Source: Haloglomus salinum
GTDB lineage: Archaea; Halobacteriota; Halobacteria; Halobacteriales; Haloarculaceae
Direction of reading: 5' to 3'
Assembly: GCF_024298825.1 (NCBI RefSeq)
Contig: NZ_CP101153.1
Location: 3,968,001 to 4,032,000 of the forward strand
DNA: 64,000 bases
Both the position numbers and the translations under genes were made by a program. The notes below the pieces were generated by a model. That model saw nothing but the letters and a program-made list of their open reading frames with translations, was not told the DNA's origin and searched no databases. Within the stretch, counting starts at the first letter, position 1. The number at the start of each line of letters is the position of its first letter. Positions 3,529 to 12,565 of the stretch are shown in pieces.

Positions 3529-4311
3529 TTACAGTTCGGTCTCGAAGTCCTCGAGGGCGTAGGTCGGCTCGGCGCCGCGGTTGTCGAGCGTCTCGTTGGC
3601 CAGCAGCCAGTAGACGACCGACAGGGCCTTGCGCCCCTTGTTGTTGGACGGGACGACCAGGTCCACGTTGGACGTGGTGTTGTTGGAGTCGCACATCGCC
3701 ACGACCGGGATACCGACCGTGATGGCCTCCTTGACGGCCTGGCTGTCACCGATGGGGTCGGTGACGACCACGACGTCCGGCTCGATGTAGCCGTCGTACT
3801 TCGGGTTCGTCAGCGTGCCCGGGATGAACCGGCCGGTCCGGGCGCGGGCGCCGACGGCCTCGGCGAACTTCTCGGCCGGGAACCGGCCGTACTGTCGCGA
3901 GGACGCGACCAGAATCTGCTCGGGGGCGTAGTTCGAGAGGAACGACGCCGCCGTGCGGATGCGCTGGTCGGTCTGGGAGACGTCCAGCACGTACAGGCCG
4001 TCCGTGCGGACGCGATGGATGAACCGCTCCATCGATTTGGTCTTCTGCTGGGTGCCGATGTGGACCCCGTTCTGGAGGTACTCCTCGACCGGGATGAGGA
4101 GGTCGGCCTCCTCGTCGGGCATGACGTCCTCGTCGAGGACGGGCGTCTCCTCGGCCTCCTCGGCCTCAGCCTCGTCCTCGCCTGTCTCCTCGGCCGCCTC
4201 CTCGGCGGCGGGCGGTGCTTCTTCGTCGTCGACCTCGGCGACCTCGGCCGGCGTGTCCTCCTCGGACTCGGCGTCGGCGTCGGCCTCCAGGCCTTCCTCG
4301 TTGTCGCTCAT
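3529..4311 (-). CDS. rps2: 30S ribosomal protein uS2
   Basis: A 260-residue archaeal ribosomal protein uS2, part of the small-subunit body. The core from about residue 68 shows [50 protein letters not shown] and the [11 protein letters not shown] segment typical of the family. The first 65 residues are an extreme Asp/Glu/Ala extension, longer than bacterial homologues and common in haloarchaea. The ATG overlaps the enolase stop as ATGA, so the gene is the last one of the rpl18e-rpl13-rps9-rpoN-rpoK-eno-rps2 cluster. It converges with the NUDIX-like gene across 137 bases. Confidence 0.97.
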
Positions 4312-8635: not shown

Positions 8636-9156
8636 TCCTGCTCACCTGCTCGTTCCGGGTGAAGGTCGTCGGCCAGCGGGCTGTTCTCGTCGAAGTCGAT
8701 GTGGTCCTCCTCGGCCACCTCGACGGTGTAGCCCGGTCGCGTGACGCGGGCGCCGCGCACGGTGACGTGCCCGTGGACGATGAACTGTCGTGCCTGGTCG
8801 GCGGTGTTGCCCAGGCCCTGGCGGTAGGCCACGGTCTGGAGGCGCCGTTCGAGGACGTCGGTGACGTCCAGTGCCAGCACGTCGCCCAGGCCGTCGTCGT
8901 CGCCGAGGACGCCGATACGGCGGAGTCGGGCGAGGAACTGGTCGCGGGCGCGCTCTGCGGCCGCGTCGGCCTCCGTCTGCCCTAGCAGCGAGCGGGCCTC
9001 GCGACGGAACGAGCGAAGCGTCGACTGGGTCCGCCACAGCTCCTCCTTGTTCTTCAGCCCGTAGCGGTCCAGCAGGCTCGCCTCCTCGTCGATACGCTCG
9101 CCCTGGTACGGGTGGTTGGGCGTCTCGTAGAACTTGGTGTTGCTACCGAGTGCCAT
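8632..9156 (-). CDS. rps4: 30S ribosomal protein uS4
   Basis: A 174-residue uS4, a primary 16S rRNA binder. It has the archaeal N-terminus [20 protein letters not shown], and the S4 RNA-binding domain from about residue 105 ([31 protein letters not shown]). The ATG shares one base with the rps13 stop (TAATG), and the stop overlaps rps11. Confidence 0.97.
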
Positions 9157-9689
9157 TATTCCTCGTCACCTGCGGCGGCCTCCTCGGCCTGCTCTTCCTT
9201 GATCGCCTCGACGTTGACGCCGATGGTGCCCTCCGTCCGGCCGGTGGACTTCGTGCGCTGTCCACGGACCTTCTGGCCGCGCTCGTGTCGGACGCCCTTG
9301 TACGAGTCGATCATCTTCATGCGGTTGATGTCCTGACGACGCGTCATCTCGAGCTCGTTGCCGATCTGGTGCGTCGTCTCACCGCTGAAGTAGTCGTTCC
9401 GATGGTTGTTCATCCAGTCGGGCACCTCGTCGGCGTAGCCTTCGACCAGCTCGACGACGCTGTCGATGACATCGTCGTCGAGCTTGCCGAAGACGGCGCG
9501 CCGGTCGACGCCTGCCTTCTCAGCGATGAGGCGGGCGGCCCGGTGCCCGATGCCGTTCATCTCGGTCAGCGACCGCTCGACGGACTTCGTGCCGTCGAGG
9601 TCGGTCTGTCCAATGCGGACGAAGTAACGGATGTCCTCCTCTTCCTCGGACTCCGTGTCCTCCGCCGCGTCTGGGTCTTCTGCACTCAT
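9156..9689 (-). CDS. rps13: 30S ribosomal protein uS13
   Basis: A 177-residue uS13 of the small-subunit head. After about 20 acidic residues comes YFVRIGQTDLDGTKSVERSL, then MNGIGHRAARLIAEKAGVD and the basic HERGQKVRGQRTKSTGRT end, followed by an acidic tail. The ATG at 9689 is used because the much longer upstream frame runs through tRNA-Ser. It is the first protein gene of this transcription unit, 21 bases after the tRNA. Confidence 0.97.
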   Translation of the reverse strand: MSAEDPDAAEDTESEEEEDIRYFVRIGQTDLDGTKSVERSLTEMNGIGHRAARLIAEKAGVDRRAVFGKLDDDVIDSVVELVEGYADEVPDWMNNHRNDYFSGETTHQIGNELEMTRRQDINRMKMIDSYKGVRHERGQKVRGQRTKSTGRTEGTIGVNVEAIKEEQAEEAAAGDEE

Positions 9690-9710
9690 GTCTTGTTGTG
9701 GTGTGGCTAG

Positions 9711-9792
9711 CGCGGCGGCGGGGATTCGAACCCCGGAGGCTTGCGCCACAGAGTTAGCAACCCTGCGCCTTAGACCACTCGGCCACCGCCGC
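9711..9792 (-). tRNA. tRNA-Ser (anticodon GCT)
   Basis: An 82-base class II tRNA. On the minus strand the acceptor GCGGCGG pairs with CCGCCGC with discriminator G; the T arm is CGGGG-TTCGAAT-CCCCG; the anticodon stem CAGGG/CTCTG holds loop TTGCTAA, giving GCT, which reads AGC/AGU. A long variable arm lies between. It leads the rps13 operon. An AT-rich stretch at 9809-9817 and another at 9893-9903 upstream could serve as its promoter. Confidence 0.95.
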
Positions 9793-9942
9793 TCAGCCGT
9801 TGTGTGTGTTAATTTCGCCCCGGTCGAGCCGGAACTCGCGGGTGCCAGACACCCGCTACAGTGTTTGCGTCTCCTCGTACCGGGCAGGTGCATAAAAACG
9901 TAGTGATGCTGCCCGCGTGTGCGAGGGCGTCTCTCGGGACAG

Positions 9943-11046
9943 TCACGGCTGTAGTCGGCGGTATCGCTCCCGGGAGTCAATGGCCCACTTGTAGGCGAAC
10001 CCCGGTGGGGCTGGACCCAGCCAGTCGAGTAGTTCCTGGTGTTCCACCTTCGGGAAGCGCAGGCCATACGGCTCCACAGTGGGGTGAAACCCGTGACTTT
10101 CGAACAGTGAGCGTACCCGCACTGGGGCGTGGTCGACGTAATCGGCACAGTAGAGTCGGAGGCTGACACCGTCCCCCCACGAGAGTGATCCATCAGAGAC
10201 GTACCATACCATAGCTGCCACAGGAGTAAGAGTGTAGGTCTCCGGAACGATCGTCCGGCCGTTGCGGTACCAGTCGTGGTATCGGTCGAGCCAGGGGAGC
10301 GACCGTGTCCGGATGGAGTGGACGGCACATCGGTGATCGGTTGCCTTCCGGTTGAGTCTAGCACCAGTCGAGATACCGCCGAACTGTCGGTCGAGCCAGG
10401 CGACGAACCTGGAGTTCGTCATCCTGACCTGGAGGTAGCCGGGGCGTTGAGAACCAGGAAAACGTACATGTCCATCACCGAGAACTAGCCCATCAACCAG
10501 CTTCCGAATAGACGGAGACGGGGTCGGAGGGTCGCACTCCGTCCGGTTCCAGTGCGTCCCGACCGAGAGGAACCGTTCCTCGCAGTCCGGACAGACCGTG
10601 GTCGCGCGTCGGGTCGTCGGCTCGTGTGAGTCTCCAGAGCGCTCCGGTGAGTGGATGCGTCCGTGCTCGGAGGGACCGACCAGCGCGAGGTTCTCCGGAC
10701 GGTTATCCCAGTGAACGCCGTTGCGGTGGTGAACCTCGCAATCTCGAATGCTGCTCAGCCCGTACTCCGCGACGGCGAGTAGTCGGTGGTGACGGACGCA
10801 GTGGTCGTCGTGCCAGACGAGTTCGTACCCCTGGTTGGTCGAACCCGGGGAGGTGACCGTCAACGGCCGCGGGAGCCGTTCCGATTTCTGGGTACGTCGC
10901 TCGATGTCGTGTTTCTCCATCCAGTTGAGAACGGTCACGTCCGAGCAGCCCAGACGGTCGGCAATGCCGTCGAGCGACAGTCCCTCGCCCCAGTAGAGCC
11001 GTTCGAGCGTCGCGGCATCACGCCAGGGGGCGTCGGCCTCGGACAC
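9943..11046 (-). CDS. probable homing endonuclease: HTH + HNH + zinc knuckle + LAGLIDADG
   Basis: A 367-residue protein from a GTG at 11046. Residues 11-50 look like a helix-turn-helix (LSLDGIADRLGCSDVTVLNW). Residues 75-132 form an HNH nuclease: VWHDDHCVRHHRLLAVAEYG, then HHRNGVHWDNRPENL with His106/107, Asn115 and Asn119, and His128. C152, C155, H165 and C171 form a zinc knuckle. The C-terminal half shows two LAGLIDADG-type motifs, LVDGLVLGDG (183-192) and AAMVWYVSDGS (277-287). Such architectures are known for free-standing selfish homing endonucleases in haloarchaea. It lies between tRNA-Ser and the mrp operon and shares no pathway with either, so lateral acquisition is likely. The open frame continues upstream to 11598 antisense-like through other genes; that part is rejected. 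Confidence 0.8.
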   Translation of the reverse strand: MSEADAPWRDAATLERLYWGEGLSLDGIADRLGCSDVTVLNWMEKHDIERRTQKSERLPRPLTVTSPGSTNQGYELVWHDDHCVRHHRLLAVAEYGLSSIRDCEVHHRNGVHWDNRPENLALVGPSEHGRIHSPERSGDSHEPTTRRATTVCPDCEERFLSVGTHWNRTECDPPTPSPSIRKLVDGLVLGDGHVRFPGSQRPGYLQVRMTNSRFVAWLDRQFGGISTGARLNRKATDHRCAVHSIRTRSLPWLDRYHDWYRNGRTIVPETYTLTPVAAMVWYVSDGSLSWGDGVSLRLYCADYVDHAPVRVRSLFESHGFHPTVEPYGLRFPKVEHQELLDWLGPAPPGFAYKWAIDSRERYRRLQP

Positions 11047-11099
11047 ACGGGCGAGTGCTGCGCGACCGGATATGAATCTACGCCCCGCCGAGCAGACTC

Positions 11100-11348
11100 C
11101 TAGTCCCGGTCCCGCTCCAGCGTCCCCCGCTCGCTCACCTGCAGGATGGTCCGCATGTTCCGGTAGATGGCCTCGGGGTCGGTCTCCTCGTCGGGGTCGT
11201 AGAGGTCCGACACCCGGAACAGGACGGCCGCGACCCGCTCGGACTCGTCGCTGTCGCCCCGAACCTCGCGGGCCACGTCGCGGAGCATGGCCGCACGCTC
11301 GGGGTCGTCGCTGGGCTGCTCGGGACTCCCGGAACCGTCGTCGCTCAC
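11100..11348 (-). CDS. small acidic haloarchaeal protein linked to mrp
   Basis: An 82-residue hypothetical protein, helix-rich and acidic (RAAMLRDVAREVRGDSDESE; DPEAIYRNMRTILQVSERG), without cysteines or membrane segments. Its GTG start overlaps the stop of the upstream Mrp-type ATPase gene as GTGA, so it is almost certainly translated from the same mRNA and may work with it. No family function is known to me. Confidence 0.75.
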   Translation of the reverse strand: MSDDGSGSPEQPSDDPERAAMLRDVAREVRGDSDESERVAAVLFRVSDLYDPDEETDPEAIYRNMRTILQVSERGTLERDRD

Positions 11349-12403
11349 TGCTCCGGGGCGCCGGCCTGCTGCTGGTGTCGCCGCCGGTGGACGATGCCCT
11401 GCATGTCGGCGGTCGTGCGGACGAAGTCACGGAACGACTCGCCCGTGTCGCTGTCGTCGTCGAGGACGACCGGTTTCCCCGCGTCGCCGCCCTCGCGGAC
11501 GGACGTATCGAGCGGGATGCTCCCGAGGAACGGCATGTCGTTCTCCTCGGCGAAGCGCTCGCCGCCGCCCGAGCCGAAGATGTCGTGCGTGCTGCCACAG
11601 TCGGGGCAGTGGAACCCGGCCATGTTCTCGACGATGCCGAGGACGGGGGTGTCGTGCTTGCCGAACATCCGGAGCCCCTTGCGGGCGTCGTCGAGCGCGA
11701 CCTCCTGGGGGGTCGTGACGATGACCGCCCCCGACACCGGAACCGACTGGAGCATCGTCAGCTGGGTGTCACCCGTGCCGGGCGGCAGGTCGACTACCAT
11801 GTAGTCCAGCGCGCCCCACTCCACGTCCTCCCACAGCTGGGTGATGACCTTGTGGACCATCGGCCCCCGCCAGATGACGGGGTCGTCCTCGCCCAGCAGG
11901 AAGTCCATCGACATCAGCTTCATGCCGAACTTCTCGGGGGGGACCATCGTCTCGTCCTGTGTCGCCTTCGGTGCCTCGCCGGCGTCCAGCATCCGTGGGA
12001 CGTTCGGGCCGTACACGTCGGCGTCGAACAGCCCGACACGGGCTCCGCGGTCGGCGAGGCCGGCTGCGAGGTTGACGGCCACCGTCGACTTGCCGACGCC
12101 ACCCTTGCCGGAGGCGACGGCGATGATGTTCTTGACGCCCGGGAGAATCTGGTCCTCGGCCGCGACGCCGCGGTCGACGTTCGCGGACAGTTCGACCGAC
12201 AGCCCGAACCCCGAGAGCGCTGTCCGGACGTCCTCGGCGATGCCGGTCTCGGTCGGCGAGTACGGGGCCCCGAGCGCCAGGTCCACATCGATGGCGTCCC
12301 CGACGGTCACGTCGTTGACGAGTCCGAGCGAGACGATATCCTCCCCGAGGTCGGGGTCCTCCACGGAGCGCAGCGCATCGAGAACCTCGTTCCGGTCTAC
12401 CAT
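11345..12403 (-). CDS. Mrp/NBP35-family P-loop ATPase (iron-sulphur cluster carrier)
   Basis: A 352-residue cytoplasmic protein. Residues 1-85 form a DUF59/MIP18 domain, and the rest is a deviant-Walker NTPase: VASGKGGVGKSTVAVNLA (P-loop GKGGVGKS, 99-106), FDADVYGPNVPRML, VVDLPPGTGDTQL, and a FHCPDCGS CX2C pair that binds the cluster at the dimer interface in relatives. It is inferred to assemble or deliver Fe-S clusters. The ATG at 12403 is chosen because the family starts at this point. The downstream 82-residue gene overlaps it, and the proteasome genes diverge upstream. Confidence 0.93.
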   Translation of the reverse strand: MVDRNEVLDALRSVEDPDLGEDIVSLGLVNDVTVGDAIDVDLALGAPYSPTETGIAEDVRTALSGFGLSVELSANVDRGVAAEDQILPGVKNIIAVASGKGGVGKSTVAVNLAAGLADRGARVGLFDADVYGPNVPRMLDAGEAPKATQDETMVPPEKFGMKLMSMDFLLGEDDPVIWRGPMVHKVITQLWEDVEWGALDYMVVDLPPGTGDTQLTMLQSVPVSGAVIVTTPQEVALDDARKGLRMFGKHDTPVLGIVENMAGFHCPDCGSTHDIFGSGGGERFAEENDMPFLGSIPLDTSVREGGDAGKPVVLDDDSDTGESFRDFVRTTADMQGIVHRRRHQQQAGAPEQ

Positions 12404-12565
12404 TACCGGCGATAGGCCCCGTGCGGGCGATAAGGATTGTGACGCCGACCGGACAGGGGCGACCGGCACTGGGGAGACAGTATCCCACGGGAAGCACAGA
12501 CAAAGGTCGAGAGACAGATGTTCGGATGGAATGTGCTGAGTTACTGACCAACCCGCAGCTAAATG

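Follow-up and report, generated by a model that had tools for sequence, protein, structure and literature searches.

The locus

The stretch of DNA analysed here (the window, 64,000 nucleotides) belongs to the haloarchaeon Haloglomus salinum, whose genome is a single contig of 4.19 Mb. Between orf82/mrp and the tRNA-Ser/rps13 operon it carries a reading frame of 367 codons, open throughout, which encodes a protein with the features of two nuclease families (Table 1). The ORF is real, and in an alignment its in-frame GTG coincides with the first codon of stand-alone HNH relatives (VSEADAPWRD in the fusion protein, MTDSEYPWRD in the relatives). The gene is an ORF of its own, outside any intron or intein and between intact genes; Rfam revealed no intron at the locus, its sole match being the intact tRNA-Ser.

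Table 1. Features of the fusion gene and its surroundings (positions in the window)
Feature	Position	Strand	Basis or remark
rps13, flanking gene	9156..9689	-	
tRNA-Ser (GCT), intact flanking gene	9710..9792	-	Rfam
Extra DNA without counterpart in three congeners	9938..11099	.	edges approximate, the spacer itself being variable
367-aa ORF, GTG start: HTH-HNH + zinc knuckle + LAGLIDADG fusion	9943..11046	-	ORF and profile matches
LAGLIDADG-like helix 2, residues 275-286, with D285	10189..10224	-	family alignment, model
LAGLIDADG-like helix 1, residues 178-192, with D191	10471..10515	-	family alignment, model
CX2C-H-C knuckle, residues 152-171	10534..10593	-	belongs to the LAGLIDADG family
HNH site, residues 86-130	10657..10791	-	profile, family alignment, fold
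Helix-turn-helix (HTH), residues about 10-46	10909..11019	-	pLDDT about 97; HTH-protein fold matches over 2-55
orf82, flanking gene, function unknown	11100..11348	-	stop codon next to the extra DNA
mrp (NUBPL/ParA-type P-loop NTPase), flanking gene	11345..12469	-	

In three congeners (G001, G002 and G003) the same flanks, 87-95% identical, enclose an empty site, and the spacing between them is about 33-80 bp, compared with about 1.16 kb where the fusion gene is present. Conservation of the tRNA promoter block extends as far as the point where the extra DNA begins. Because the flanks are separated by a spacer of variable length, the insertion point and the target site cannot be read from the alignment. 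The base composition of the gene deviates from its surroundings (GC3 of 0.73, with 0.79 in the N-terminal and 0.70 in the C-terminal half, vs. 0.87-0.95 in the neighbours). Since the gene is absent at this place from all three other species of the genus examined, it is not an old, shared gene. An earlier note, made from the sequence, had proposed a mobile gene in an intergenic site beside tRNA-Ser, free-standing and devoid of intron or intein marks. This proposal fits the unoccupied sites of the congeners, the unusual GC3 of the gene, its free-standing relatives (see below) and the Rfam result, and the position and length that the note gave for the protein were also correct.

Two other kinds of mobile DNA were considered and set aside. 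A tRNA-targeted integrative element does not match an insertion with a single ORF, situated 5' of a tRNA gene that is intact, and no terminal inverted repeats, as expected of a transposon, stand out at the edges. Scans of the locus for sigma-70 promoters and terminators gave nothing; such scans do not suit archaea. A separate observation is that the four species of the genus all share a conserved block between a TATA-like box and tRNA-Ser (9820-9872, minus strand). It contains a GC-rich hairpin (GCGGGTGTCTGGCACCCGC) and perhaps lies within the leader of the tRNA-Ser/rps13 operon.

Two nuclease domains in one protein

The protein comprises an HTH and HNH part (residues about 1-136), a zinc knuckle (152-171) and an I-SceI-like LAGLIDADG domain that extends up to residue 366. 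This is the order of elements in the earlier note, and both nuclease folds have support from profiles, kept catalytic residues and predicted structures. In the N-terminal half, residues 86-130 match Pfam HNH_3 (PF13392; E 1.2e-8, 34.8 bits vs. a curated cut-off of 24.8), and residues 7-144 match phrog_7545 (HNH; E 1e-37). In the C-terminal half, residues 182-305 match Pfam LAGLIDADG_2 (PF03161; E 1.3e-8, 35.4 bits vs. a curated cut-off of 25), and residues 177-355 match phrog_11023 (LAGLIDADG; E 2e-31). Judged by these profile scores, the Pfam and PHROG matches of both halves are far beyond chance. The HTH scores below the Pfam cut-off and is modelled with high confidence given the HNH family alignment.

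Residues expected of working sites are kept in both halves. H87, H106, H107, N115, N119, H128 and H132 are invariant across the HNH family, and the fusion protein, itself excluded from the conservation counts, retains all 22 conserved columns of that family. Within the LAGLIDADG family, the knuckle residues C152, C155, H165 and C171 vary little or not at all, the catalytic acids D191 and D285 are kept on the two LAGLIDADG-like helices, and 32 of the 39 conserved columns are retained, seven being lost. The branch leading to the C-terminal half is long (1.21 changes per column).

For structure prediction, the full protein was modelled with AlphaFold in two runs, each with the alignment of one family, and each run was confident for its own half; a single combined alignment of both families and the fusion protein had been abandoned, as it misaligned the halves. 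The models thus describe each half separately and do not predict their relative placement. In the LAGLIDADG-alignment run, block means of pLDDT were 70-97 from residue 151 on, except for 59 at 301-310; in the HNH-alignment run, they were 93-97 for residues 11-50 and 91-130. The C-terminal half superimposes on I-SceI (1r7m; Z 20.5, rmsd 3.0, 200 residues), and other LAGLIDADG enzymes match too, as does WhiA, a DNA-binding regulator. The best structural chain for the N-terminal half is I-HmuI (1u3e; Z 7.9, rmsd 3.6, 76 residues); Foldseek alone found no confident match, and the sequence-profile match to the I-HmuI chain has an E-value of 6e-4. Model-based support for the HNH fold thus appears weaker than that for the LAGLIDADG fold, yet it is backed by the family profile. 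The claim of two nuclease folds in one chain is supported by separate predictions, with a more modest match on the HNH side. A fold search among viral proteins returned mainly LAGLIDADG relatives.

Relatives of the two halves

Relatives cover either residues about 1-140 or residues about 142-366, never both, among 97 relatives, a 391-genome sample of the class and 146 genomes of the family (overlapping sets). Stand-alone HTH-HNH proteins, 35-45% identical over residues 1-140, stop some 30-50 residues past the HNH site and have no LAGLIDADG domain. Stand-alone LAGLIDADG proteins begin at or near the knuckle and lack the N-terminal HTH-HNH part. From these ends and starts, the junction is placed at about residues 137-149. 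Both halves have relatives on haloviruses and, within the genomes searched, stem from haloarchaeal or haloviral families otherwise found only as separate proteins.

No second HNH and LAGLIDADG fusion was found in the 146 genomes of the family, the 391-genome class sample or the phage and plasmid records, none of which covers 80% of the fusion protein at one place. The search covered haloarchaea, phages and plasmids, and similar fusions may exist elsewhere. Scans of viral and genome contigs with the single protein also gave no relatives; they are based on exact short peptides and are insensitive. Two candidate leads were discarded. The shared knuckle was considered as a crossover point because an HNH protein of phiH matches across the junction, and the C-terminal part of that protein proved to be a different cysteine motif. 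The 'L-fucose mutarotase' matches obtained with phmmer (E 2e-4) align unrelated secondary structure and are absent from the family-profile results.

The LAGLIDADG relatives have their own preferred places. In Halorubrum their frames overlap the stop codon of pcn (sliding clamp) at its 3' end, in Halarchaeum a relative lies about 0.5 kb behind pcn, and in H. salinum itself an intact paralogue directly follows pcn (L086:4094-5718; contig C1, about 1484093-1485717). Loci of this pcn-associated, free-standing lineage include L093:4262-5744, L094-L098, L100-L103, L086 and L090. Other relatives adjoin thyX, both on chromosomes (L012:714-2226 and L130:1272-2778) and in Halorubrum virus VOLN27B (L124:1793-3187), which suggests that virus and host exchange such genes by way of the DNA-metabolism genes they have in common. 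The start annotated for the LAGLIDADG gene of VOLN27B seems to be placed too far downstream. The genome that carries the fusion also contains a LAGLIDADG relative that is broken and frame-shifted (L087:3444-4102; C1, about 4043940-4044607). Free-standing LAGLIDADG_2 genes have already been published for Haloferax (PMC5867893). In phage T4, free-standing homing genes lie between conserved genes, sometimes overlapping the upstream gene, and SegB is located among tRNA genes (PMC2988022); the pcn- and thyX-adjoining habit of the relatives resembles this arrangement.

Probable origin and predicted activity of the fusion gene

We consider it probable (roughly 0.7) that this is a free-standing gene for a homing-type endonuclease, that it was acquired recently, and that it arose when two haloarchaeal or haloviral nuclease genes were fused in frame. 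In one parent, an HTH-HNH gene, the C-terminal tail would have been replaced; the other would have been a zinc-knuckle LAGLIDADG_2 gene. The I-SceI-like domain would recognise and cut a long site in insert-free DNA, while the HTH and HNH domains would provide further contacts to the DNA and perhaps nick it as a second activity. With a gene-carrying copy as the template for repair, the gene would then be inserted, and neither an intron nor an intein would be needed (intronless homing). Cleavage, the target sequence, homing and the working of both active sites are all predictions from the domains and their known counterparts. The HNH homing enzymes MobA, MobE and I-HmuI nick one strand (PMC2988022). 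A bolder version of this proposal, which we regard as rather doubtful, is that the protein might be a natural dual-nuclease homing enzyme, in which LAGLIDADG would make the double-strand cut and HNH would nick or cut at a further position next to it, by analogy with the engineered MegaTev; the target would then not be simply re-sealed, and repair would be biased towards copying the gene in.

It is a serious possibility, only slightly short of even odds, that just one of the two nucleases cuts. The LAGLIDADG domain might cut while the HTH-HNH part binds or targets DNA, or, in reverse, the LAGLIDADG fold might only bind, as in WhiA. Other haloarchaeal LAGLIDADG_2 relatives have acquired DNA-binding parts that are not nucleases (that of L080 has C2H2 fingers, that of L081 homing-associated repeats), WhiA is among the fold matches, and the C-terminal half has lost seven conserved positions. 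However, both sites keep their catalytic residues, namely D191, D285 and the HNH histidines and asparagines. The likelihoods given to this alternative and to the homing-type fusion gene overlap, because the two differ only in whether both active sites cut.

That the gene is a chance fusion heading for decay, its function or mobility gone, would explain why a single copy is known and would be in keeping with the broken LAGLIDADG relative in the same genome; nonetheless, the open frame of 367 codons and the complete set of conserved HNH-family positions make this improbable. We consider it highly improbable that the protein is a nuclease useful to the host, for example against viruses or plasmids, rather than the product of a selfish gene. 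Both halves have haloviral relatives, and the authors of the Haloferax study raise such a role for free-standing homing genes (PMC5867893). Against it, the gene sits directly between housekeeping genes and is missing in congeners, and ZorE, the one defence-related family to be matched, scores far below its cut-off.

Comparison with known systems

Precedents exist for free-standing haloarchaeal LAGLIDADG_2 genes, for homing genes next to tRNA genes and for hybrid homing enzymes, whereas the pairing of HNH with LAGLIDADG is absent from the papers searched; no published fusion of this kind was found in the open-access literature (subscription papers lay outside the search). The closest systems each share a part of the properties of the fusion. 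The LAGLIDADG_2 endonucleases of haloarchaea and haloviruses (PF03161; I-SceI/I-WcaI fold) are likewise free-standing and have a homologous knuckle and LAGLIDADG domain, corresponding to residues about 142-366 (PMC5867893), without the N-terminal HTH-HNH nuclease, and the haloviral and haloarchaeal HTH-HNH endonucleases (phrog_7545; I-HmuI-like HNH) are homologous to residues 1-140 without a LAGLIDADG domain. SegB and SegF of phage T4 are likewise intergenic and intron-free, and SegF has been described as a hybrid (PMC2988022). However, the T4 Seg and other free-standing homing endonucleases of this kind are GIY-YIG or HNH enzymes with no LAGLIDADG domain, encoded by phage genes for which homing has been demonstrated. 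MegaTev, in which the I-TevI nuclease domain was joined to a LAGLIDADG meganuclease, also has two nuclease folds per chain with the second at the N-terminus (PMC5751168), but it is artificial, uses GIY-YIG rather than HNH, and its dual cutting has been demonstrated, whereas cutting by the fusion protein is predicted. A natural in-frame fusion of two homing endonuclease families, LAGLIDADG and GIY-YIG, occurs in a fungal mitochondrial cox1 intron of Leptographium (PMC12308204); unlike the gene described here, it is intron-encoded, fused to an exon, not free-standing, and contains GIY-YIG instead of HNH.

The fusion shows that haloarchaeal homing nucleases are assembled from whole nuclease domains, and the empty sites of the congeners allow homing to be tested directly. 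Should both active sites work, the engineered two-blade design would have a natural counterpart in a free-standing selfish gene. Such a protein would show cleanly whether homing genes benefit when a nickase is combined with a double-strand cutter on a single chain, and could serve as a compact, salt-tolerant scaffold for genome editing. In one genome (L080), about 1 kb separates a C2H2 zinc-finger LAGLIDADG protein (1337-2725) from a stand-alone HTH-HNH gene (3721-4197) on the opposite strand, an arrangement that is a possible setting for the origin of such fusions.
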